Source of the DNA: Sphingomonas naasensis
Lineage (GTDB): Bacteria; Pseudomonadota; Alphaproteobacteria; Sphingomonadales; Sphingomonadaceae
Assembly: GCF_004792695.1 (NCBI RefSeq)
Contig: NZ_SRXU01000004.1
Location: 124,001 to 188,000, forward strand
Direction: 5' to 3'
DNA length: 64,000 bases
Translations under genes and position numbers: made by a program
The notes under the pieces: model-generated
Told to the model about the DNA's origin: nothing
What the model saw: only the letters and a program-made list of their open reading frames with translations
The model's database searches: none
Shown: piece by piece, positions 10,046-22,444 of the stretch
How the letters are laid out: each line of letters opens with the position of its first letter
Numbering within the stretch: the stretch's first letter is position 1

Positions 10046-11035
10046 TCAGATCACCGCAGTCGCGACCTGCGCCAAAAGACGCAGTGCTTCTGCTATGCGT
10101 TTTCCCTCGATGGCGGCGATGCGCCGACGCTCGGTTTCGGTGAAATCGCCCTTCAGGTGCCGTGCCAGCGTCGCCCGGCTATTGCCGAGCAGCACGACCG
10201 CCGCCTCCATCGCCTTTCCACGTGCCTCGACCTGGTTCTCGTCGACGCGCGCCGATTGCAGCAGTTCGACGAAAGCGAGACGCTGCTCGAACGGGCGGCT
10301 GTTGCGGATCTGGCCGTTGTAGACCGTGCGCAGGCGGCTGGTGGTGTCGTTCGCGTCGGTCCTGGCGAAGGCCACCCAATCCCTGACCTGCTTCTGCAAT
10401 TCGGCCGAGATCGCGCCGACCTCCGCATCGCGCGCGGCGACGATCGCGCGCACGCGCCGGACCTTGCCGGCTTCCTGCGCGAGATCGCTGGCGAATTGCG
10501 CGAGCTTGATCGCGCTTTTCGCCTGATCGCCCGCCAGATCCGTCGGGATTTTGGGCAATCCGGCGCCGAATAGCGCCTCGGCGAGCGCGCGCGCCTCGCC
10601 GGCCTTGGCGGCGAGGGCCGCCAGCTCGGCGGCGATGTCGCGGTTCGGCGCGCCGAGAGTCTTGTCCAGAGCTGCGGCATAGTCCGCCAGCGCGGCGATC
10701 ATCACCAGTGTGGGCTGTACGCTGGCATCGGCGATCGGACGCGTGTCGAGGGCTATCGTGGTGCCTTGGGGTCCAGGTTCGTCCGCGCAGAGCGCTCCTG
10801 TCGATCCTATCCGGATATGGACGACTATCGCGCCGGTGCACGAAGGATCGCTTGCGACGATCACCGCGTTCGCGCGGGCCCGGCGGAGCCTGTGCTCGAC
10901 GAGCGCGGCGCGCGACGCGTCGACGACCGCGGTCGAGGATGTCGAGACGGTGGCGGCGCTTTCCAGCCGCAGAGTATTGGCGCCGCAACCGGACAGCACG
11001 AGCGCCGTGGTGACAAGGAGAGAGCGGTGTTTCAT
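10046..11035 (-). CDS. Hypothetical lipoprotein
   Basis: 329 residues. A short lipoprotein signal with lipobox LVLSGC near residue 18 is followed by a mostly helical, Ala/Arg-rich domain. One conserved-looking stretch is SDPSCTGAIVVHIRIG. The start at 11035 overlaps the patatin stop by four bases (ATGA), which points to translational coupling and excludes the longer arginine-rich reading. No known family was recognised. Being a lipoprotein coupled to a patatin-type lipoprotein, it is probably an envelope partner of the phospholipase. Confidence 0.65.
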   Translation of the reverse strand: MKHRSLLVTTALVLSGCGANTLRLESAATVSTSSTAVVDASRAALVEHRLRRARANAVIVASDPSCTGAIVVHIRIGSTGALCADEPGPQGTTIALDTRPIADASVQPTLVMIAALADYAAALDKTLGAPNRDIAAELAALAAKAGEARALAEALFGAGLPKIPTDLAGDQAKSAIKLAQFASDLAQEAGKVRRVRAIVAARDAEVGAISAELQKQVRDWVAFARTDANDTTSRLRTVYNGQIRNSRPFEQRLAFVELLQSARVDENQVEARGKAMEAAVVLLGNSRATLARHLKGDFTETERRRIAAIEGKRIAEALRLLAQVATAVI

Positions 11036-12429
11036 CGGGATGCTCCTTTGCCGCGCGCGGCGGCGATCTCGGCGACGGTCGGCAATGCAATCCACGGTTG
11101 CGCGCGGTCGGCCTTGGCGGCGCCGAACCGCTGGAGGCATTGCATGAAGGTGGGATTGAACATCATCCCCTTGCGATCACGGCCACGGTGGAAGTCCTTG
11201 CGGCACCCGGGTCCGCCCTCCGTCGCCGGCCGGTTCCAGCCGTCGGCGGTGGCGAGGTGGATCGGGGTCGAGGGAAAGCCGAGACGCAGCGCCGCGATCG
11301 AGCCGACCTCCAGCGCGTTGACCATGATGCTCTGCGTGCGCAGCGCCGCGCTCAGCGCGTCGGCCCGCCCGTCGATCGCGGTGTCGCGACCGACGATCGT
11401 GGGGCCGTTGCGCACCACATAAAGTGGCGGCGTGACAATGCTTGCACCTGTGCGTGCGCGCACCGCCATGATCGCTGCGGCGCGCTCGGCGATGGCGGCC
11501 TCGAACACCGACTGGCGAACGCCGCCATCCATATAGGAGCGTTCGTCGATACGCACCTGCTGGTAGAATACCGGCACCGCCGCGGAGGCGAGGGCGGCGC
11601 CGACGATGCATTGCTGCGCGGTGCGTCCGCGCAGGCGCGCCAGCATCCGCACGTCGACGAAGCGGAAGCCGCCGTTGCGGGCATCGACGAAGCCGAGCAG
11701 CGTCGGCGGGGTTCCCGGCGCGGCGAGCAGCTTGAGCATCGGGCTTTGCGTGCAGTCGCCTTCGCCCGGACGGCCGTCGGCGCGCGGACATAGCGCTTCC
11801 TCGATGCGGCGGCGCAGCGGCGCGCTTCCCGCAACCGAGCCGGTGAGCGCGGCAAGGGCCTGCGCGTTACGGTTCACGATTTGCCGTTCGCTGGCCGGCG
11901 CGTAATTGCGCGTGAGCGTTGCGAACATCCGCTCGGCTTCCTCCGGGCGGCTGGCGCCGGCGAGGAACAGGGCCTGGAGTGCGCCGGTGCTCACGCCGCT
12001 GATGAAGGTGAACTGCGGCAATTCGCCGCATTTGTGGAGCCGGTTGAGGAAGCCCGTGCCGAACGCGCCCCATTGGCCGCCGCCCGAGAGCAACAACAGG
12101 CCGGGTTGCGTCGGCGCCTCGCGCCCCGCTCCGGCAGGACGGTCGCAATCGGGGCCGGGGGGGAAAACCTCCGCCGACAGGCCGACGAGCTCGGCAAGGT
12201 CGATGCCTTCGCGCAACAGCGCGTCGAAATCCTCGGTGGACGTCGCGGCGGTGTCGGCGGCCGCGATCGCGCCCGTCTGGTCCGCCTCGGTTGGCGGCGG
12301 CGCGTCGCGCTGGATCGCCTCGGTGAGCGCGTCGCGCGGCAGCGCGTGGCTCATCGCGTAGAAACCGGGGCAGTCGCGGATCGCCATCGGGCCGCGCATC
12401 GCGCAGGCCGACAGCGTCAACAGCGCCAT
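11032..12429 (-). CDS. Patatin-like phospholipase, probable lipoprotein
   Basis: About 465 residues with the full patatin catalytic kit: oxyanion loop LLSGGGQWGAF (about residues 114-123), nucleophile elbow GVSTG with Ser147, and catalytic aspartate in YMDGG (Asp301). Patatins hydrolyse acyl esters of phospholipids or neutral lipids. The N terminus has a lipobox, LTLSAC, so the enzyme is probably membrane-anchored. From the ATG at 12429 the signal is too short; a CTG at 12450 would add LRGALAV and make a normal signal peptide, so the real start may be there. It overlaps the downstream lipoprotein gene by four bases and follows the inhibitor gene by 40, in the middle of the haem-peroxidase operon. 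It is the candidate source of free fatty acids for the oxidases nearby. Confidence 0.85.
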   Translation of the reverse strand: MALLTLSACAMRGPMAIRDCPGFYAMSHALPRDALTEAIQRDAPPPTEADQTGAIAAADTAATSTEDFDALLREGIDLAELVGLSAEVFPPGPDCDRPAGAGREAPTQPGLLLLSGGGQWGAFGTGFLNRLHKCGELPQFTFISGVSTGALQALFLAGASRPEEAERMFATLTRNYAPASERQIVNRNAQALAALTGSVAGSAPLRRRIEEALCPRADGRPGEGDCTQSPMLKLLAAPGTPPTLLGFVDARNGGFRFVDVRMLARLRGRTAQQCIVGAALASAAVPVFYQQVRIDERSYMDGGVRQSVFEAAIAERAAAIMAVRARTGASIVTPPLYVVRNGPTIVGRDTAIDGRADALSAALRTQSIMVNALEVGSIAALRLGFPSTPIHLATADGWNRPATEGGPGCRKDFHRGRDRKGMMFNPTFMQCLQRFGAAKADRAQPWIALPTVAEIAAARGKGASR

Positions 12430-12469
12430 CACGGCGAGGGCGCCCCGCAGGGGCGCCGCCGCCGGCGGG

Positions 12470-12721
12470 TCAGCTATGCGGGTCTTCGTCCTCGGTGGTG
12501 TAGCTCTGGTCCACTTCGACGTTTGCGACGCCGGGCACCGCTGCCAGCGAACCGAGCTTTTCCTCCTCGATGTCCCCGGCGATGATGCCGCCGAGTTCGG
12601 AGGTGTCGACAACTTCGAGGCCGGCGTTGCGCAGCTGCTGCTCGATGGCGTCGAGGCGCTCGCGGTGCGGCTCCTCGACCGTGACAAGGACGCTGAGCTT
12701 GTAGGTCTTGCGTCCGGACAT
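12470..12721 (-). CDS. Stand-alone inhibitor-I9-like protein (subtilase propeptide-type)
   Basis: 83 residues, no signal peptide. The pattern strand (YKLSVLVTVEE), helix (RLDAIEQQLRNAG), strands (LEVVDTSELGGIIAGDI), helix (EEEKLGSLAAVPG), strand (VANVEVDQSY) is the ferredoxin-like beta-alpha-beta-beta-alpha-beta fold of inhibitor I9/subtilase propeptides, where the C-terminal tail occupies the protease active site. The gene lies 41 bases downstream of a subtilase gene in the same operon, which strongly favours an inhibitor or folding chaperone acting in trans. The ATG at 12721 has a GGAG ribosome site; an upstream extension is low-complexity. Assignment is by fold pattern and context, not by a search. 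Confidence 0.65.
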   Translation of the reverse strand: MSGRKTYKLSVLVTVEEPHRERLDAIEQQLRNAGLEVVDTSELGGIIAGDIEEEKLGSLAAVPGVANVEVDQSYTTEDEDPHS

Positions 12722-12762
12722 GAACCGATCTCCACTGCTTGGGTCCCCTTTTATCGCAAAGG

Positions 12763-14193
12763 CTATAGCCGCGCGAGCCCCGCGCCGACGTCGCTCGCCG
12801 GCTGCGACAGCGGCTGCGCGCGCGAGACGAGCATGCGCCACAGTTCGCTGGCGCTCAGCGAGGGATTCTGCTGCAGCAGAAGCGCGGCGATCCCGGCCAC
12901 GTGCGGCGTCGCCATGCTGGTTCCGTCGAGCAGGTCATATTGCGAGCGCCATGGCCGGAAGCGCGGCGGCTGCGGCGGCGCAGCGGGCTCGGGAGCGCTC
13001 GAATAGACCTGCACGCCGGGCGCAGCGATATCGATGTTGGCGCTGGGGTTCACCGCCGCGTTCGAGAAGTCCGCCACCCGCAAGGCGCGGTCGAGCGCCG
13101 CCACGGCCATGATCGACGGGCAGTTGGCCGGCGAGCTGACCGGTTCGGGGCGGGTCTGGCTGCGGCGGCTGTCATTGCCGGCCGCCGCGATAATCAGGGC
13201 ATTGCTGCGAAGTGCGTTGCGCGCGAGCGTCTCGAACGCGGGGCTCGGCCCGGCACCGGGCAAGATCCGTCCGCCGATCGACATCGAGATGATCCGGCAT
13301 CCCTGGCTGACCGCCCATTCGATTCCGAACACGGTCGAGCGGCCCAACGCCGCGCCGGTATTCGAAAGCACCTTGCCGATATAGAGTTCGGCCTCGGATG
13401 CGATGCCGTAGCGGGGACCTCGCTGCGGCTGACGCGAGCCTGCGGCGGTGCCGGCACAGTGAGTGCCGTGGCCGTTCAGATCGTCTACGTCCTGGCCGGG
13501 AATGAAGGACTTCATCCGCGCGGCGCTCAGGCGTCCGCGAAAATCCGGATGATCGATGTCGATCCCGGTATCGAGAATGGCCAGCTTGACGCCGCGCCCG
13601 GTCAGCGCCGTGCCCTCCACCCCCGTCGCGGTCAATCCCCAGGTCGAGGTGAGGCTGTCGGCAAATGCCTGCCCGGCAGCGCACGCGCCGGGCAGGCCCG
13701 CCAGTGGGCCCGGTGCCGCGCTTTCGCCGATCGCTTCGCCATTGAGCTGGGCCCAGAGCGCGTTCACCGCGTCCCGATAGCCGCGCAGATACGGGGCGAA
13801 GTCGGGCGACGCGCCACCGAAGGCGAAAAAAATGGGCTCGCACTCGCGCGAGGCGAGCGGATTGGCCTTGTCGGCGACCGCCGCCGCGATCGCGCCCTGC
13901 TGGTCGGGATCGGCGTCGAGCACCGCGACACCGAGCGAGGGAAAGATCGTCGCATCGGCGCCGTCCCCGGCGGCGGCGGCCATGCCCTCGCCATAGTCGG
14001 CCGCGTGCGCGACGGCCAATCCCGCCTTCGACCGCAGCGTCGCGACCGCGTCGCTGGTACCCTCGAGCGGGAAGGTGACCAGCATGCCCGGGACCAGTTC
14101 GGACGCATAAGGCGCGGCGAGCCGGATGAGTGGGTTGCCATTCTCGCCGGCCTCGCCGGTTCCGGAATGCCGTCTTTGGGTTCCCTTCGCCAT
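12763..14193 (-). CDS. Subtilisin-like serine protease (S8 family)
   Basis: 476 residues. Catalytic triad: Asp208 in LAILDTGID, His242 in NGHGTHCAG and Ser426 in DGTSMATPHVAG, with the oxyanion Asn340 in AAAGND. Residues 1-165 form an N-terminal region, part of which (about 36-125) could itself be a propeptide-like domain. There is no signal peptide: the protein opens with the hydrophilic MAKGTQRRHSGTGEAGENGN, so it is probably cytoplasmic or exported by a non-Sec route. The ATG at 14193 (after GAGGA) is chosen over the GTG just before it. It follows the haem peroxidase gene by 61 bases and precedes an I9-like inhibitor gene. Substrate unknown; the neighbouring peroxidase or P450-DyP are candidates. 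Confidence 0.92.
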   Translation of the reverse strand: MAKGTQRRHSGTGEAGENGNPLIRLAAPYASELVPGMLVTFPLEGTSDAVATLRSKAGLAVAHAADYGEGMAAAAGDGADATIFPSLGVAVLDADPDQQGAIAAAVADKANPLASRECEPIFFAFGGASPDFAPYLRGYRDAVNALWAQLNGEAIGESAAPGPLAGLPGACAAGQAFADSLTSTWGLTATGVEGTALTGRGVKLAILDTGIDIDHPDFRGRLSAARMKSFIPGQDVDDLNGHGTHCAGTAAGSRQPQRGPRYGIASEAELYIGKVLSNTGAALGRSTVFGIEWAVSQGCRIISMSIGGRILPGAGPSPAFETLARNALRSNALIIAAAGNDSRRSQTRPEPVSSPANCPSIMAVAALDRALRVADFSNAAVNPSANIDIAAPGVQVYSSAPEPAAPPQPPRFRPWRSQYDLLDGTSMATPHVAGIAALLLQQNPSLSASELWRMLVSRAQPLSQPASDVGAGLARL

Positions 14194-14254
14194 CACACCG
14201 TTTCCTCGAGCAAGGCGGTTGCCGCAGTGCCCGGCCGAAGCGTCGACCGGCGCA

Positions 14255-15949
14255 TCACAGCACTCCCGCGAATTTGAAGAAGGATTCGAAGCTGTCGACC
14301 GGTCCGCCGGGCAGACCGGCGTCAGCGGGATGCCAGCGTCCCTGGTCGCTGCCCGCGGCGTTCCAGTAGCTTTCGGGATCGGTCGCGATCAGGCCGACCA
14401 GCGTCTCGGCGACGATCGCGCTGCCGATCGGCCCGAGCCGTTTGCCGCCGCCCCGCGCCTGCGCCTCGGCGAGCACGTAGAACCACAAGGGCGTCTGGGT
14501 CTCGTAGCCATTGTCGTCGATCGCCGCGCCGCCGGGGCCCGCGGTGATCTCGGCGGTGGTCAATGCCTTGACCTCGATCCCGGCATCGTCGAGCTGTGCC
14601 CCGACGGTCTGCGCGGTGGGCAGGTTGAGGATATAGCTCCGGCGCAGGTTGCGCTGCGCCAGCGAGCGCAGATGCGGCTTGCTTTCATTGACGAGGTCGC
14701 CGAGCGCGTCGGCCAGCGCGGGATCGATCGGGCGCGCGACACGTGCGACGTCGTCGGGCACAATGAAATTGGCCCAGTTGATGATCCACACGCTGGGCAG
14801 CACGGATGCCCCGCCGAGCCCTCCCTTGCCGGTGAACTGGAACAGCTCGTGCAGCGTCGCCCGACCGAGACTGCCCGCGGGGCCGAAGAACGCGTTGAAG
14901 GTATAGGCGCCGCGGATCATCGAATGGCCGAAGCGGAAGGCGGCGACACTGAACTCGATCGGGAGCGGTGCGTGATCCCCGGACGTGCCGCCATGCGCTT
15001 TGGCGAAGGCCGCGTAGCGGGCGCCCCCGCTCACCTTCGTCACGGCGAGGATCGCGGGATCGCACAAGGCGGCGAGATACCGCTCCACGACGAGCCATTG
15101 ATAATGCCACTGCACCAGCCGTTTGGCGCGTGCGAAGCGCGCGTCGTCGTCACCGGCAAGCGTATCGGCGACGGCGTTGTGGAAGCGCAGGACCGACAAA
15201 TGGAGCTGCGCGACGACCAGATTCTCGTCATTGCGGCTGTCGGCGATGAAAGCGAGCTTGCGCGGATCGACGGGGCCGAAGTCGCTGACCATGCCCGTGG
15301 TCGGTGGCAAATCGGTCACTAGGCCTTCGTCCAGCATCTGGCCGAAGCGCGGCAGATCATTGGGCTCACCGCCATCGGCGTGGCCGACGCGCATATGTGC
15401 CCCGTCGCGCAGCTTCTCGTCGATATCGGTGCCGTCGCCATAGACGCTGTCGAGCCGCAGCGTGCCGCGTCGCAGATTGCCGAGCTGCTGCATCACCGTC
15501 GCGCGCGGGTTGATCACCAGCGGCGGCGCGGCGATGCTGAAATCGGCCAATGCCTCGGGATTCCGATCGGTGTTGGCGGTGATGTCGTGATCGATGAACT
15601 GGCCGAAATAGGTGAGCACGGCGGGCAGCTCGCTCGACGGTCCGGGAAATGGCCCGGCGTCGTTCATCGCCGCGCCGACCGCGCCCAGCTTTTCGAACGC
15701 GTCGGGATCGTGCACCAGCCCGCCGCCGGTGAACATATAGCCGAACCGGTCGGGTCCCGCCGGTGCCGCGCCTGCCGCCGCCGCGCCTGCCGCCTCGGCG
15801 ATCATGTCGGGCGCATTCGACGCGAACGCGGATGCGGGTGCGACTTCGCTGCTGGTCGCGCCGCCGGCGCCGTCCCCATCGCTGCCCGCGGTGGCGAGAG
15901 TCATGCCGAGCTGCACGAATTTTTGACCATGTCCCAGTGCGAAGAGCAT
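14255..15949 (-). CDS. Animal-type (cyclooxygenase-superfamily) haem peroxidase
   Basis: 564 residues. The distal site reads FGQFIDHDIT: Gln117, Asp120 (haem-ester position), His121 (distal) and Asp122 (calcium position). DSRNDEN supplies Arg239 and Glu242, and RFGHSMIR supplies the proximal His342. These are the invariant residues of the myeloperoxidase/cyclooxygenase/alpha-dioxygenase superfamily. Members oxidise halides or insert oxygen into fatty acids. No signal peptide is evident; residues 18-65 are Ala/Gly-rich linker. The start has GGGAG six bases upstream. It is first in a six-gene operon and divergent from a regulator gene, with a phospholipase and a P450-DyP fusion nearby, a setting that favours a lipid substrate. 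That choice is inference. Confidence 0.92.
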   Translation of the reverse strand: MLFALGHGQKFVQLGMTLATAGSDGDGAGGATSSEVAPASAFASNAPDMIAEAAGAAAAGAAPAGPDRFGYMFTGGGLVHDPDAFEKLGAVGAAMNDAGPFPGPSSELPAVLTYFGQFIDHDITANTDRNPEALADFSIAAPPLVINPRATVMQQLGNLRRGTLRLDSVYGDGTDIDEKLRDGAHMRVGHADGGEPNDLPRFGQMLDEGLVTDLPPTTGMVSDFGPVDPRKLAFIADSRNDENLVVAQLHLSVLRFHNAVADTLAGDDDARFARAKRLVQWHYQWLVVERYLAALCDPAILAVTKVSGGARYAAFAKAHGGTSGDHAPLPIEFSVAAFRFGHSMIRGAYTFNAFFGPAGSLGRATLHELFQFTGKGGLGGASVLPSVWIINWANFIVPDDVARVARPIDPALADALGDLVNESKPHLRSLAQRNLRRSYILNLPTAQTVGAQLDDAGIEVKALTTAEITAGPGGAAIDDNGYETQTPLWFYVLAEAQARGGGKRLGPIGSAIVAETLVGLIATDPESYWNAAGSDQGRWHPADAGLPGGPVDSFESFFKFAGVL

Positions 15950-15991
15950 TTCGGACTCCCTTTTGGCGATTGTCGCCGAAGGTCATCGCGG

Positions 15992-16014
15992 ATCACCCGC
16001 TCGCAGGACGTGAT
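15992..16014. promoter_or_regulatory. Candidate operator in divergent promoter region
   Basis: The 135-base region between the divergent haem peroxidase and regulator genes holds an inverted repeat ATCAC (15992-15996) / GTGAT (16010-16014) with a 13-base spacer. A second, weaker pair GCGAT (15966-15970) / ATCGC (15985-15989) is next to it. Such placement suits autoregulation by the regulator encoded at 16085, but no consensus is known for it. Confidence 0.3.
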
Positions 16015-16084
16015 TGCGGCGTCGGGAAAGCGTGAAAAATGAAGTGAGGAGGCCCCGTTTTTCGCTTATGTTGCGCGCGGGGGA

Positions 16085-17770
16085 ATGATGCAGCAGGCGA
16101 CCGGGCACTCGCACCAGCTGAATCTGTTGGGTCCGTTTGGCTTGTTCGAGCCAAACGGCGCACGCATCGAGATTCCCAGCAAGAAGGGCATGGCGCTGCT
16201 CGCGCTGCTGGCGATGGCGCGGGACGGCGTGCGCGCGCGGCCGTGGTTGCAGGACATGCTATGGGGCTCGCGCGCGCCCGAGCAGGCGAGCGCGAGCCTG
16301 CGCCGCGAGCTTTCTGCGTTGCGCCGGCTGCTCAACGCCGGCTCCGATCCGCTGTTGATCTGCGAACACGGCCGCGTCACGCTCGCGCTCGATCATATCG
16401 CGGTCGATGCCGGAAGCGCGCGGCCGGGCCGCTGCGGCGAGTTCCTCGAGGGGCTGGATCTCGTCGACGCCGAGGCGTTCGAGCAATGGCTGCGCGAACA
16501 ACGCAGCGACTTTGCCGGGCAATTGGCGCCGCCGGCCGCGCCGGTGTTGCCGCGCGACATCGTCGACATGACCGAGCCTGCCGCGGGTCTGCCCGATCGG
16601 CCCACGCTGGCGGTGCTGCCTTTCGCCAATCTGACCGGGAATGCCGAGCTCGACTATGTCGCCGAAGGCCTGGTCAGCGATCTGATCGATCAGATCGCCC
16701 ATCTGCGCTGGCTGCCGGTGATCTCGGGCATGGCGAGCGCCGCCTATCCTTCGGCGAAACTGCGCCTCGCCGATATCGGGCGGGCGCTCGGTGCGCGATA
16801 TCTGATCGACGGGCGACTGCGCGGAGAGGCCGGCGCGCTGACGCTCGCGATCGGGATTTCCGACACCGACACCAGCGAGGCGATCTGGTCGCACCATATC
16901 CAGCTCCCCGCCGACGCCTCCGCGACGATGCTGGGGCCGGTGCTCGACGAGATTGTCGGCGCGCTGTCCACCCGGATCGATCTGGCGGAGATGGTCCGCG
17001 CGACGCGGGCGCCCGCGACCGGCTCCGGCGTCACCGGCCTGATCTGGCGCGCGCGCTGGCATCACAACCGCTACACGCCGGCCAATGCACGCATCGCCGA
17101 GGATCTGCTCGAACAGGCGCTGGCGATCGATCCGGACTCGTCGGAGGCGATCCTGCAGCTCGCATATTTCCGCCAGCGTCAACTATGGATCAAGCGCGCC
17201 AGCGCGGCGGAAATCGCGGATCTTGGACAGCTCGCGCGGCGCGCGATCACTGCCGACCCGATCGACGGCCGAGGCTATATGCTCGCCGGGATGGCCGAAC
17301 TCTGGCGTCGCAATACGGTGCCCGCGGTCGCGCTGCTCGAGCAGGCGATCCGGCTAAACCCCAGCCTTGCGCTGGCTTACACCCAGCTGGCCGCGGCCTT
17401 CTATCTCGACGACGCACCCGAACACGCACTCGAACCGATCAGCCGGGCGTTCCGATTGGGGCTGGGCGAGCAATATACTTATTATGCGCTGGGCGAGCTG
17501 GCGATCATCCGCGCGATGCTGGGCAATGCCACCGGCGCGATCGAGGCGGCGGACCATGCGATCGTGCGCCGCGAGGCCTATTGGTATGCGCATCTCGTGA
17601 AGATCCACGCGCTGGTCCAATGTGGCTGCGCGGGGGAAGCCGCCGCGGCACTTGCGCGGCTGCGACGTGCCAAGCCGCGCTTCGATGCCAGCTATATCGA
17701 CTGGATTCCGTTCACCACCGCCAAATGGCCGTCACGCCTTCGCGCGTCGTTGAGCGTGGCAGAGGAATAA
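16085..17770 (+). CDS. SARP-type winged-helix regulator with TPR repeats
   Basis: 561 residues. Residues 10-105 look like the winged-helix DNA-binding domain of SARP/AfsR-type regulators (LNLLGPFGLFEPNGARIEI, then WLQDMLWGSRAPEQASASL and LRRELSALRRLL). Residues 174-300 form an alpha/beta domain, LAVLPFANLTGN...LVSDLIDQIAHL, seen in adenylate-cyclase-like and FlgO-related regulators. The rest (about 310-540) is tetratricopeptide-like, with repeats such as LLEQALAIDPDSSEAILQLA and LLEQAIRLNPSLALAYTQLA. No membrane segment is seen. It is divergent from the six-gene peroxidase operon and directly upstream of the P450-DyP gene on the same strand, so it is the likely pathway regulator. Start: one of two adjacent ATGs after GGGGG. 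Confidence 0.8.
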   Translation: MMQQATGHSHQLNLLGPFGLFEPNGARIEIPSKKGMALLALLAMARDGVRARPWLQDMLWGSRAPEQASASLRRELSALRRLLNAGSDPLLICEHGRVTLALDHIAVDAGSARPGRCGEFLEGLDLVDAEAFEQWLREQRSDFAGQLAPPAAPVLPRDIVDMTEPAAGLPDRPTLAVLPFANLTGNAELDYVAEGLVSDLIDQIAHLRWLPVISGMASAAYPSAKLRLADIGRALGARYLIDGRLRGEAGALTLAIGISDTDTSEAIWSHHIQLPADASATMLGPVLDEIVGALSTRIDLAEMVRATRAPATGSGVTGLIWRARWHHNRYTPANARIAEDLLEQALAIDPDSSEAILQLAYFRQRQLWIKRASAAEIADLGQLARRAITADPIDGRGYMLAGMAELWRRNTVPAVALLEQAIRLNPSLALAYTQLAAAFYLDDAPEHALEPISRAFRLGLGEQYTYYALGELAIIRAMLGNATGAIEAADHAIVRREAYWYAHLVKIHALVQCGCAGEAAAALARLRRAKPRFDASYIDWIPFTTAKWPSRLRASLSVAEE

Positions 17771-17808
17771 CGCCAAAATGGGCGGGTTCGGAATTGATGC
17801 CCGCTATT

Positions 17809-17827
17809 GTACTGATAAGATAAGTAC
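17809..17827. promoter_or_regulatory. Inverted repeat upstream of the P450-DyP gene
   Basis: GTACT (17809-17813) and AGTAC (17823-17827) form an inverted repeat around an AT-rich nine-base spacer, in the 84-base gap between the regulator stop and the GTG of the fusion gene. The surrounding bases are much richer in A/T than the flanking genes, as expected for a promoter or operator. Possible target of the upstream regulator; no known consensus. Confidence 0.35.
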
Positions 17828-17854
17828 TTGAGCGTTTTCACTGGGGGGTGGGGC

Positions 17855-20800
17855 GTGGCGAAAACGAAGTATTTTGATCGCATTCTCGAAGTGCGTGGTG
17901 CATGGCGGCAACCGCGTATTGGTGAACTTCTCGAATTCGATTTCAACCGACTTGGGCGGAATACGTGGCGGGAAAAGATCGTCGGCGCCGTCGTCGACGG
18001 CCTGCTGCCGGTCCTGCTCTGGCTGGGCAGATCCTTTTTCCCGGTGTTCCGATTGAACGGCGTCTACTGGGTCTGCCGTGCCGAGGATGTCGAGGCCGTG
18101 CTCGCCGACGGCGCGACCTTTCCCACACCCTTCGGGCCGGAAATGGCGGAGCTTTCGGGCGGACACGCCGCGCCGCCCACCACCGGACCGATCGATCGCG
18201 GCGACGAGGTCAATTTCTCGCTCGGCATGGATGGGCCGGACCAGGCGCGCCAGAACGCGATTATCCGAAGCGTCGTGCTGCCCGGGGACACCGAACGCGT
18301 CGGCCGATATGCCCGCGCCTTCGCGCTCTCGCTGATTGCGGGAGGGAAGGGGCGGCTCGACGTTGTCGGCGACCTGTCGATCCGGATCCCGACCGAGATT
18401 TGCAGACGCTATTTCGGGCTCGGCATCGCTGATCCGGACAGTTTCGCGGAATGGGCGATGTCGGTCTCGGCATTGGTGTTCGCCGACCCTTATGGCGATC
18501 CCACGACACGCGAGGTCGCGCTTGCCGGAGCGCAGCGGCTGCGCCGGATCATCGACATCGCCATCGCGCGCGCCAGGCGGCCGGTCGCGCGCGCGGTCGC
18601 GCTGGGGACGCCGGATCTCGCCCAGTTGACGTTGGTCGAACGGTTGGTTGCGCTGTCGCAGCACGATCGCGCACTTGAGCTGCAGGATGACGAAATCCGC
18701 GCGATCCTGCTCGGAATGGTCGTCGGCTTCGTCCCGACCAATGGCGTCGGCGGCGCGAAGATGATCGAGGAGATCCTGCGCCGGCCGGAAGTGTTCGACC
18801 TGGCATGCAAGGTGGCGCGCGCGGGAAAGGTCGAGCGCCTCGAAGCGATTCTGCTCGAAGCGGCGCGGCTCAACCCGGGGCTGGCGCCCGGCCAATGGCG
18901 CTATTGCCCGGGGGGCGCCACCGTCGCCGGGCGCGAGATCCCCGCCGGCGCGACGGTGATGGTGGCGACGATGTCGGCAATGCGCGACCGGCGCCGCTGG
19001 GCGCATCCCGGTCGCTTCGATCCGAACCGCGGGCAGGAGCCGGGGTTGATCTTCGGTGATGGGCTCCATGAATGCGTCGGCAAATATCTGGCGATGCGGA
19101 TCATCCGCGAAGCGCTGTTGCCGCTCTTTGCGCTGCCGGGATTGCGCGTGGCGGCCGGCCCCCGGGGGCGGATGCAGCGCGTGGGCTATTTCACCAAGCG
19201 GCTCGACATGGTCTATGATGGTCCAGCCAGCACCCAGAGCCAGATCATCATCGCCATCCCGGTCGTCGATACCGGCAAGGTGACGGATATTCGCGAGGCA
19301 CTTCGCGACATGGGCAATCCGGCCTCGTCGAAAGTCACCGCGGCGCTCGATGCTACCGGGATCGTCCATTTCTCCTCTTGCTCGCTGATCAATGCGGGGG
19401 TGCCCGGAGCGCCCGAATTCCGGCTGCTGATCGAACTCAATGTCGATGGCCAGCGCGATGCCGCGATCCATTGCTATGCGGTCGCGATGGGCCGGTGGAT
19501 CCGCCCCATCGTCGCGCTCGCCCTCGGCGACGCGCCCGATTCGCTGGAAGCGGCGCTGCGCCGCCACGCGCTCGACCTGCATTTCTGGCCATGGGGATCG
19601 ACCGGGCTGCATTTCCCGGGGACAGGCGAATTCTCCGTCGCCGACATACATCGCCAACAGGCTTTGCACGCGCATGTCTGTGACAAGATCGCCGCCAATC
19701 TGGCTGGCGATGCCGACAAACTGGGCGGCCGCGCATTGCAGGTGCTGGCGAACGTCCGCCACGAGATCCGGGATGCGGCATGGGCGAATCCGGAAGACGG
19801 TGGATTGCTCGAACTCGATGCGATGCTGGTCGCGCCCACGCGCGGCGGACTCTCATTTGCGCGACGGCGGCCCGATCATGGCTTCTGGGCGCCGTTCGCG
19901 GACGTCTGGAGCGGCGGGTTGAACCACAAGGTCGGCACGGTTGCCTTCGCCACCTGGGTCGTGACGCTGCTGCTTTGCCATCATGCGCTCCGCCAGGGCG
20001 CGTGGCTGTCGCTTCCCGCGCTGGGCCACAGCATTTGGGGACTCGGCGCCGCCTTGTATCACGGCGCGCTGGGGGACGCATTGGCTGCCGGGCTGCGCGG
20101 CGGGTTGCTGGCGTTGCTGGCGTTGGTCCTCACGATCCTGTTCTGGACGCTCGTTCTGGCCGCATTGGCTTGGTTCTACCGCCGTGCCGAGCGGCTCGAG
20201 GTGCCGGATGACGAGGCTCCCGATCGCGAGCATCTGCGGGAGATCGCGGCGCGCGAGGACAGCCCGGGCCATGCCCAGAACCACATCATCGCGGTGACTC
20301 CGCTCAAGCGCGGACTGATGCGCCGCCTGTCGCTCGCGCTCGCGCTCTGGGGCATCCGGCAGAGCCTGTTGTGGTTCCGCACCGGCTTCGTCGTGACCAT
20401 GGGCACGATCCATTACGCGCGCTGGTTCCGCGTGCCCGGCACCCACACATTGGTGTTCCAGTCCAACTATGACGGCAGCTGGGAAAGCTATCTCGAGGAT
20501 TTCATCACGCGCGCGCATCAGGGGCAAACCGCGGCGTGGAGCAACGGCGTGGGGTTTCCGAACTCGGAATGGCTGATCAACAAGGGCGCGCGCGACGGTG
20601 ACCGTTTCAAGCGCTGGGTGCGGCGCCAGCAGGTGCCGACCGATTTCTGGTACAGTCGCTACCCGCAACTGACGACGCAGGAAATCCGCCGCAACGCGCT
20701 GGTGCAGGATGGCCTGGCGCGGGCCTATTCCGATACCGCAGCGCGCGCGTGGCTCGATCTGATCGGCTCGGCGCCGCGGCAGGAATATGAACTCGAGTCA

Positions 20801-22444
20801 GAAGAGATCCAGTCGATTCTGTTCCGCGGGCTGAAGCGCGCCTATTTCAGCGCCTGCATTCCCGTGCGCCTGCCGTCTGACGGCCGCAAGAGCGACTGGC
20901 TCATGCATGTGCGCGAACATTTGTCGTTCGGCGCCTATCCCAAGCTCGATGGCGCGCTCTATCTCGCACTGTCGCCAACCGGGATCGCCCGGTTCGACAG
21001 TCCGCAAGGCGACGCGGCGCTCGGCGTCGACATGCTGCGCGATTTCCCGAGCGCGTTCGCGGGCGGGATGAGCGCGCGCAGCAAGATTCTGCGCGATCCG
21101 GACCCGGAGGCGCACGGCTGGCGATGGCGCGACGCCGCTCCCGAACCCGAAGCGAATGTCGCCGATGCCGTATTGCTGATCTACGCGCCCAATTGCGCGG
21201 CGCTCGACCAGGAGATCAGCAATCATTGCGCGGCGCTGGAGGAACATGGCGGCGCGGTGGTGCACGGCGTGATCCGCACCCTGCTGCTCGACGAAGAGGG
21301 GACCGTCATCGACGGCACACCGCGCGGACGGAATGCGCCAAAGGCTGTGAGCCATGAGCATTTCGGCTTCCGCGACGGCATCTCGCAGCCGGTGATCCGC
21401 GGCACCGAACAATTCACCCCCGGCTTCGACAGGCATGATCTGGTCGAGCCAGGCGAATTCGTTCTCGGCTATCGCAACAATCAGGGCTATTTCCCGCCGG
21501 CGATCACCGTTCCCGCGGCGACGGACCTGGGCGAGAGCCTTCCGATCCTGGCGCAGAGCACGGCCTTCGGTCATCCCGATTTCGCCGGCCGGGACGATCT
21601 GCTGGCGACCCGCGATTTCGGCCGCAACGGCAGTTTCCTCGTCATTCGCCAGCTCGGACAGGATGTCGCCGGCTTCCGCCGCTTTGCGGACGGGAAGGCC
21701 GGGGAGCTCGTTGCTCATTATGGCGAGAAGGAATTGCGCGCCACTGTCGGCGAGCATGTCGACGGGGACTGGGTCGCCGCCAAGATGATGGGAAGATGGC
21801 GCGATGGCCGCCCGTTGATCGGCAATCCCCGGCGGGCGAATGAATTCAACGACCAGAAACCCAATAACGACTTTTTGTATGGCCGCGACGATCCGCGCGG
21901 CCACCAATGCCCGCTCGGCGCGCATATCCGGCGGACCAATCCGCGCGACAGCCTCGAGCCCGATGATCCGCTTGAGCAGACGATTTCCAACCGGCATCGC
22001 ATGTTGCGACGCGGGCGCAGCTATGTGTTCGATCCGGCGATCTCCGACTATGTTTCGGAACACGCGCCGGAGGCGGATGTGCAGCGCGGCATGTTGTTCA
22101 TGTGCCTGTGCGGCGATCTCGAGCGGCAGTTCGAGTTCGTGCAGCAGAGCTGGGCGACGCTGCCGTCTTTCCACGGCCTGACCGGCGAGCCCGATCCGAT
22201 CACGACCGACGCGCGCCTGTGCGAGCCGCGCGGCTATTCGATCCCCACCGCCGCCGGCCCCCTGGCGCTCAAGGAGATGCAGACCTTCGTCGAGTTTCAC
22301 GGGGGCGGCTATTTCTTCGTGCCCAGCCGCTCGGCCATTGATTATTTGATCAATCTCGACGGGCCGCGCTTCAACGAAACAAGACGATGGAAGGATGTTC
22401 TCCAGGCGCTGGGCGCGAGTCAGGCCGACGCCGGGAGCACTTGA
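17855..22444 (+). CDS. Cytochrome P450 - DyP-type peroxidase fusion, membrane-anchored
   Basis: About 1529 residues, far longer than either family alone. Residues 1-460 are a P450: EAAR (Glu335-Arg338) is the K-helix ExxR, and FGDGLHECVG carries the haem thiolate Cys407. The I helix reads GMVVGFVPTNGVGG (287-300), so the usual acid/alcohol pair is Val-Pro. Residues 475-690 are an unassigned alpha/beta region. Two transmembrane segments lie near 693-713 and 750-776. A further domain at about 800-980 (with IHYARWFRVPG and FQSNYDGSWESYLEDF) leads into a DyP peroxidase to about 1500: GFRDG with Asp1174, LGAHIRRTNPRD with proximal His1357, and an NRHRMLRRG segment near 1380 with the distal arginine. 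GTG at 17855 follows a G-rich ribosome site; a TTG at 17828 has none. The gene follows the regulator and faces the haem-peroxidase operon. Probably two haems act on a shared hydrophobic or peroxide substrate. Confidence 0.9.
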   Translation: MAKTKYFDRILEVRGAWRQPRIGELLEFDFNRLGRNTWREKIVGAVVDGLLPVLLWLGRSFFPVFRLNGVYWVCRAEDVEAVLADGATFPTPFGPEMAELSGGHAAPPTTGPIDRGDEVNFSLGMDGPDQARQNAIIRSVVLPGDTERVGRYARAFALSLIAGGKGRLDVVGDLSIRIPTEICRRYFGLGIADPDSFAEWAMSVSALVFADPYGDPTTREVALAGAQRLRRIIDIAIARARRPVARAVALGTPDLAQLTLVERLVALSQHDRALELQDDEIRAILLGMVVGFVPTNGVGGAKMIEEILRRPEVFDLACKVARAGKVERLEAILLEAARLNPGLAPGQWRYCPGGATVAGREIPAGATVMVATMSAMRDRRRWAHPGRFDPNRGQEPGLIFGDGLHECVGKYLAMRIIREALLPLFALPGLRVAAGPRGRMQRVGYFTKRLDMVYDGPASTQSQIIIAIPVVDTGKVTDIREALRDMGNPASSKVTAALDATGIVHFSSCSLINAGVPGAPEFRLLIELNVDGQRDAAIHCYAVAMGRWIRPIVALALGDAPDSLEAALRRHALDLHFWPWGSTGLHFPGTGEFSVADIHRQQALHAHVCDKIAANLAGDADKLGGRALQVLANVRHEIRDAAWANPEDGGLLELDAMLVAPTRGGLSFARRRPDHGFWAPFADVWSGGLNHKVGTVAFATWVVTLLLCHHALRQGAWLSLPALGHSIWGLGAALYHGALGDALAAGLRGGLLALLALVLTILFWTLVLAALAWFYRRAERLEVPDDEAPDREHLREIAAREDSPGHAQNHIIAVTPLKRGLMRRLSLALALWGIRQSLLWFRTGFVVTMGTIHYARWFRVPGTHTLVFQSNYDGSWESYLEDFITRAHQGQTAAWSNGVGFPNSEWLINKGARDGDRFKRWVRRQQVPTDFWYSRYPQLTTQEIRRNALVQDGLARAYSDTAARAWLDLIGSAPRQEYELESEEIQSILFRGLKRAYFSACIPVRLPSDGRKSDWLMHVREHLSFGAYPKLDGALYLALSPTGIARFDSPQGDAALGVDMLRDFPSAFAGGMSARSKILRDPDPEAHGWRWRDAAPEPEANVADAVLLIYAPNCAALDQEISNHCAALEEHGGAVVHGVIRTLLLDEEGTVIDGTPRGRNAPKAVSHEHFGFRDGISQPVIRGTEQFTPGFDRHDLVEPGEFVLGYRNNQGYFPPAITVPAATDLGESLPILAQSTAFGHPDFAGRDDLLATRDFGRNGSFLVIRQLGQDVAGFRRFADGKAGELVAHYGEKELRATVGEHVDGDWVAAKMMGRWRDGRPLIGNPRRANEFNDQKPNNDFLYGRDDPRGHQCPLGAHIRRTNPRDSLEPDDPLEQTISNRHRMLRRGRSYVFDPAISDYVSEHAPEADVQRGMLFMCLCGDLERQFEFVQQSWATLPSFHGLTGEPDPITTDARLCEPRGYSIPTAAGPLALKEMQTFVEFHGGGYFFVPSRSAIDYLINLDGPRFNETRRWKDVLQALGASQADAGST

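Follow-up and report, generated by a model that had tools for sequence, protein, structure and literature searches.

Fatty-acid hydroperoxide isomerases occur both among cytochromes P450 (CYP74 and the fungal AOS and LDS), according to a review by Oliw (PMC13049297), and among catalase-related proteins (PMC5617202). In the fungal dioxygenase-CYP fusions (linoleate diol synthases, DOX-AOS and DOX-EAS, the PpoA type), two haem enzymes share one chain and the P450 acts on a peroxide and needs no redox partner (PMC13049297). In the coral allene oxide synthase-lipoxygenase fusions a catalase-related haem domain is the hydroperoxide isomerase (PMC5617202), and in the oomycete CYP5619 proteins a P450 is fused to a haem peroxidase/dioxygenase (PMC5919972).

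The 64,000-nucleotide stretch of Sphingomonas naasensis DNA analysed here (the window; contig NZ_SRXU01000004.1, positions 124,001 to 188,000) encodes a protein that joins a P450 to a DyP-type peroxidase. The first domain of the fungal fusions belongs to the peroxidase-cyclooxygenase family, whereas here a DyP stands at the other end of the chain and two domains, D1 and D2, and a membrane stretch lie between the haem enzymes; a search of the window fusion with PF03098, the peroxidase-cyclooxygenase domain, gave no match. The partner in corals is a lipoxygenase, here a DyP. CYP5619 carries another peroxidase/dioxygenase, and its haem motif is degenerate (PMC5919972), whereas that of the window fusion is intact. 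In sequence the DyP part is best matched by PDB entries 8re3 and 7anv (named D-type), chains of 445 and 488 residues without a P450. The preliminary description knew of no enzyme of this plan; likewise no P450-DyP fusion appears among the papers listed by our literature searches, which covered papers outside subscription, and to our knowledge the fusion has not been described before.

Architecture of the fusion and its relatives

The fusion gene is a single uninterrupted frame on the + strand, from a GTG at 17855 to 22444 (1529 aa); an alternative TTG start at 17828 would give 1538 aa with the same stop at 22444. Its domains follow the order P450, D1, probable membrane hairpin, D2, DyP. The frame of about 1529 codons proposed to unite both enzymes is thus intact, with no frameshift or stop between the two haem domains, and the ExxR motif, haem cysteine, distal aspartate and proximal histidine all lie at the residues first given for them. 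A long open frame on the opposite strand (17804-19762, 652 aa) overlaps the fusion and is taken as an artefact of GC-rich DNA.

The P450 domain spans residues 45-455 approximately (17987..19219, +). Pfam PF00067 matches it at 5.7e-10, above its cut-off, and PDB entries of EryK at 1.4e-15 and 1.6e-15. An AF2 model of this part (pLDDT 75.5, pTM 0.77) resembles bacterial P450s in Foldseek (best E 1.1e-14; 1582 PDB matches at E<=0.001). The model therefore predicts a P450 fold rather than a structure lacking the haem pocket, with a poorly modelled haem loop (pLDDT below 50 at 396-406, directly N-terminal to the cysteine). The glutamate and arginine of the ExxR motif (335-338; 18857..18868, +) and the thiolate Cys407 within FGDGLHECVG (19073..19075, +) are present in 14/14 fusions; the haem loops of the aligned P450s follow FGxGxHxCxG, in part with deviations.

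The DyP-type domain, residues 975-1502 (20777..22360, +), is matched by TIGR01413 at E 3.1e-22 with 79.3 bits, below the curated cut-off of 100.5, and by PF20628 at E 0.047 with 13.9 bits, below the cut-off of 20. PDB DyPs match it down to 5.3e-33, and the relative from locus L073 exceeds the TIGR01413 cut-off with 106.1. The window protein holds the complete trio of haem-pocket residues: the distal Asp1174 of GFRDG (21374..21376, +; Asp in 13 of 14 fusions, Glu in L028), the proximal His1357 (21923..21925, +) and Arg1385 (22007..22009, +), which we take to be the distal arginine of the pocket; the latter two are found in all 14.

Between the two enzymes lie D1 (residues 458-690; 19226..19924, +), with an invariant His505 and Asp531-Gly532, and D2 (about 800-972; 20252..20770, +), with an invariant His853. 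The two unassigned domains of the preliminary description are both there, but as one domain present twice: when the profiles of D1 and D2 are compared, hhalign gives 98.7% for the versions from single genes, 97.9% for those from the D1-TM-D2 proteins and 95.9 and 97.1% crosswise. A blastp comparison of D1 with D2 gave nothing useful. Kinship of D1/D2 with the DyP or P450 domains was considered and dropped, hhalign giving just 0.1-0.5%. No Pfam or NCBIfam model scored above cut-off for D1/D2 in the window, L061, L066, L073, L074 or the L077 protein with D2. A model of D1-TM-D2 (pLDDT 53) has a ferredoxin-like D1 at low confidence, and with it Foldseek found nothing at E<=0.001; VIA-align placed dimeric barrels of the ABM/IsdG type among the first, the best, 3mcs_A (Z 6.3, rmsd 4.3 over 151 residues), being too weak a match to a model of such pLDDT for a claim.

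A probable transmembrane hairpin occupies residues 693-781 (19931..20197, +). In the model one helix spans 693-735, for the most part below pLDDT 50, and a second 739-781; hydropathy peaks of 1.53 and 2.79 lie between D1 and D2. The membrane anchor expected between the haem domains is thereby supported, and in 14/14 fusions this place has two or more peaks that reach 1.5 (six or more in L030).

A search for homologues with the same domain order, as had been suggested, returned 13 other full fusions with 34.7-45.9% identity to the window protein. Six are full-length relatives from Mesorhizobium, a Rhodopseudomonas MAG, Bradyrhizobium, Reyranella, an alphaproteobacterial MAG and Vineibacter; six more came from a wider genome search and one from a plasmid collection. 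The last, SARO_RS19865 (1443 aa, same order), lies on plasmid pNL2 of Novosphingobium aromaticivorans DSM 12444 and is annotated as a Dyp-type peroxidase domain protein; we found no paper naming this gene. Further plasmid records match over 80% of the query and lie outside the alignment of 14. All 14 keep ExxR, Cys407, Pro294-Thr295, His505, His853, His1357 and Arg1385. Because the 13 others retain order and key residues, the fusion is a real, conserved object and not an artefact. The P450s of the 14 form one clade with support 99/99 in a tree built without L159, so that fusions of the window type probably arose once among them. L159 belongs to another class (that of G440), and its plan is identical to that of the window fusion.

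The I helix of the linked P450s

The I-helix motif of the window P450 reads GFVPTN (residues 291-296; 18725..18742, +) and aligns with canonical P450s in gapless register, with Pro294 at the place of the acid and Thr295 at that of the conserved threonine. The classical acid-alcohol pair is therefore incomplete in all 14 fusions, proline standing for the acid and threonine being retained. The pair had been described as lost; this holds for the acid, but the alcohol is kept. A register of the CYP152 kind, with proline at the threonine place, arises only with compensating gaps in HMM alignments, and the gapless register was preferred.

The same pattern extends to 39 DyP-linked P450s. The acid place holds Pro in 34, Asp in two, and Ala, Gly and Met in one each; the following place holds Thr in 29, Gln in eight, and Asn and Val in one each. 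The acid is thus missing in 37 of the 39, against Glu in 6/7 other P450s of the same alignments, two of these seven sitting about 4 and 9 kb from the L152 D1-D2-DyP frame without adjoining it. Asp-Thr is retained in the linked P450s of L152, which is partial, and L155. The L152 frame (15718-16659, - strand) is 314 aa long and lies near a contig end.

CYP152 enzymes carry Arg-Pro in the I helix and CYP74 enzymes a conserved Asn, and both lack the I-helix acid, as does the window fusion. Both groups had been offered as analogues of the window P450. The CYP152 comparison fails in detail because the threonine is mostly kept among the linked P450s, and in gapless register the fusions read Pro-Thr, not Arg-Pro, the threonine being present in every one. 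The comparison with CYP74 does not hold either: the corresponding position is N in ten fusions, T in three and L in one. A CYP74-like I helix (TN..GG.K) was for this reason rejected as a mark of the family. According to the review by Oliw (PMC13049297), in which the Asn of plant AOS is Asn321, hydroperoxide-using CYPs differ at the I-helix site and the Asn there can be dispensable. A proline likewise occurs in the SRS4 of fungal 9-AOS ((V/A)PxT, TPxG; PMC13049297), a likeness at the level of the motif.

Loss of the acid speaks against the classical O2 route, without proving its absence. That the P450 nonetheless works as a conventional O2-dependent monooxygenase drawing on a distant redox system, with the DyP clearing H2O2 from uncoupling or catalysing a later step, seems unlikely to us. 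The retained threonine, which is that of O2-using enzymes and so counts against peroxide use, would fit such an enzyme, as would the two Asp-Thr pairs, the classical bacterial P450s that are the nearest PDB relatives, and a ferredoxin-reductase-like gene near the L068 fusion; redox partners near the fusions are possible, given this gene and the display of 25 of 69 neighbour families. The near-universal loss of the acid argues against it, and so does the replacement of the P450, in 14 of 59 loci, by a catalase-related protein, a kind of protein that is not known to have a monooxygenase cycle.

Two further frames are of note. One, P450-like (L120:11403-13253, - strand), has an odd haem loop (CPAKD) and adjoins a nucleotide-cyclase/AAA/TPR protein. 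The other, a P450 (L110:2353-3729, + strand), has an intact Glu-Thr pair and is a tree neighbour of the DyP-linked P450s on a long branch; by eye, the genes around it resemble a squalene/hopanoid cluster.

Partners of the DyP: P450 or catalase-related protein

The profile of D1/D2 matched in 27/398 genomes of a phylum sample, at 28 loci in total. A DyP adjoins D1/D2 in 28/28 of these and in 20/21 fresh loci, a linkage that is partly selected, the profile having been built from DyP-linked proteins. The first 28 loci comprise 17 with a P450, seven with a catalase-related protein, none with both and four with neither (p 2.8e-4). Mutual exclusivity of the two was then written down as a prediction and tested on the 21 fresh loci, the 20 with a DyP giving 12, five, none and three in the same order (p 0.0036). 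Pooling the 48 loci gives p 7e-7, and all these values are too small, the loci being related and some of them cut by contig ends.

Of all 59 loci with DyP and D1/D2, 37 have a P450 by profile and 14 a catalase-related protein; none has both and eight have neither. Loci that were found by searching with the fusion itself bias this count to P450, and contig ends (in L115, L116, L121, L155, L160 and L168, for example) limit the zero. Outside the 59 stand L078, L110 and L125, which have no D1/D2 match; L126, where a D2 fragment occurs without a DyP; L171, which lies at a contig end and also lacks a DyP; and three plasmid loci, L127-L129. The partner lies at most 2.1 kb from the DyP in every case, and on the DyP strand for 36/37 P450s and 12/14 catalase-related proteins. 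P450 and catalase-related partner are mutually exclusive in the loci seen.

Loci with separate genes contain the same parts as the fusion. The source genome itself has a second copy (L061, at C16, 246000-264000), in which D1-TM-D2, DyP and P450 are adjacent genes whose order is a circular permutation of that of the fusion; the I helix of its P450 reads Pro-Gln. DyP-P450 fusions in reverse order occur in L157 and L169, and a DyP-catalase-related fusion in L074, its catalase part not called by Pfam. Fusions of D1-D2-DyP with no P450 in the chain were found in L128, L152, L164, L165 and L168; a P450 gene directly precedes the fusion gene in L152, L164 and L165, and none is annotated near that of L128. 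Because the proteins are repeatedly fused in different orders, they are likely, by the usual inference, to work together.

A protein of 1209 aa in L158 (9205-12831, + strand) combines D2 and DyP with a C-terminal part that by eye resembles a degenerate P450. Pfam does not call this part a P450, and L158 is counted among the three fresh loci with neither partner.

The proteins of L112 and L114 score above the cut-off of the Pfam catalase model and that of L124 below it, while the model has no match in L065, L122, L123, L073 or L074. The other catalase-related proteins are tied to that of L112 by phmmer (1.6e-133 to 7e-18), and those of the fresh loci were recognised by a profile made from the phmmer set. 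In their alignment the motif of the proximal Tyr is present in 10/10 rows and a distal His in six (L065, L112, L113, L114, L122, L124); we take these residues to be the proximal and distal haem residues. The proteins of L073, L074 and L123 keep the Tyr and lack the His of RDxHAK.

Neighbouring genes and possible functions

Directly upstream of the window fusion lies a gene for a TPR-repeat regulator with a weak winged-helix match (Trans_reg_C, under cut-off; 16085..17770, +). In 13/13 fusion loci a relative of this regulator is encoded upstream, on the strand of the fusion, and a SARP-family regulator is annotated upstream on pNL2, so that a regulator is present in 14/14 fusions checked, a count taken apart from L157, L159 and L169. 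The regulators of L026 and L071 carry a nucleotide-cyclase domain, and five Crp-like neighbour proteins presumably belong to L026 and L069-L072. Such regulators would suit a sensor or signalling unit in which a haem protein reports the state of peroxide, NO or lipid to the adjacent regulator. We regard this as quite improbable: both haem domains have complete sets of catalytic residues, and the regulator cluster of the fusion loci holds no ORF from the separate-gene loci L061, L062 and L066.

The upstream regulator would also be at home in a peroxide defence, in which DyP and partner clear H2O2 and lipid hydroperoxides at the membrane without making a specific product. The catalase-related and peroxidase parts and the membrane stretch of the fusion agree with such a role, but the rare and patchy occurrence of D1/D2 in the phylum sample is unlike a housekeeping defence, and none of the peroxide defences known to us requires a P450. 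A purely defensive function thus appears rather doubtful, though less so than a monooxygenase with a distant redox system.

An animal-type haem peroxidase is encoded in divergent orientation (14255..15949, -; Pfam PF03098, 5.4e-15). It matched no PDB entry at E<=0.001 and reads FRFGH at the site where COX has its Tyr. As a fixed partner of the fusion it was rejected, none being present in 24 other loci examined, a set that closes before the later loci; perhaps it stands outside the module. The same row of genes (11032-15949, - strand) runs divergent from regulator and fusion and holds, with a subtilase, a patatin-like phospholipase (11032..12735, -; Pfam PF01734, 2.3e-21) that is a possible functional neighbour. 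Peptidase S8 was found in 3/72 neighbour proteins scanned, the subtilase of the window included.

Lipid-related genes and other hints at a substrate accompany some other loci as well, most of these proteins having been picked by eye and those of the separate-gene loci standing without a background count: a patatin (9.4e-23) and FadL (7e-82) in L115, a patatin in L116, a Tle1-like phospholipase (8.3e-74) in L119, a phosphoesterase in L117, a member of the MCRA (oleate hydratase) family (4e-196) in L112, and a RoxA-like cytochrome c in L121. A more systematic scan of 13 fusion loci took in 72 of their 76 called neighbours, with lengths of up to 1200 aa; four spurious-looking ones were dropped, and 64 neighbours from separate-gene loci lay outside it. 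No lipoxygenase or fatty-acid dioxygenase is among the 25 commonest of its 69 families that were displayed, a list read without a dedicated search.

The reading we prefer, which we put slightly below an even chance, is that of a di-haem system bound to the membrane and acting on lipid-derived (hydro)peroxides, where the DyP would have an exchangeable partner, either a P450 or a catalase-related protein. The window protein would be the one-gene form of a module made of D1-TM-D2, DyP and one further haem enzyme. The hairpin, if right, would hold both haem domains on the same, probably cytoplasmic, face beside the lipid, where substrate may be channelled between them. DyP and partner would most likely belong to the same pathway, with a lipid-derived substrate: the DyP would consume H2O2, either oxidising a substrate or adjusting the level of peroxide, and the P450, without its proton-delivery acid, would take oxygen from a peroxide or hydroperoxide and not from O2 with a redox partner, and would then isomerise or hydroxylate the lipid. 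Peroxide use by the P450 gains support, as we infer, from its exchange with catalase-related proteins and from the nearby lipid genes; the acid kept in L152 and L155, the eight of 59 loci with neither partner by profile and the FRFGH of the window's animal-type peroxidase stand against this scheme.

If the system does handle lipid peroxides, DyP would join a short list of haem enzymes in two-step P450 fusions. The natural substrates of the DyP family are largely unknown, and the way in which P450 and catalase-related protein replace each other offers a clue, open to experiment, to what all three families do chemically; D1-TM-D2 adds a conserved partner protein for which no family model reaches its cut-off. 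More speculatively, and in our estimate well short of probable, the module could be a third, independently evolved synthase of the oxylipin type, a membrane DyP with an exchangeable hydroperoxide isomerase (P450 or catalase-related) for which D1-TM-D2 would be a new lipid-presenting scaffold. The DyP would then stand where a lipoxygenase or a cyclooxygenase-type dioxygenase would be expected, and the convergence between plants (CYP74) and corals (catalase-related) would be repeated within one bacterial module. With a copy present in Novosphingobium aromaticivorans DSM 12444, the system can be put to the test, and the loci assembled here hint at a bacterial family of lipid-peroxide-handling machines so far unrecognised.
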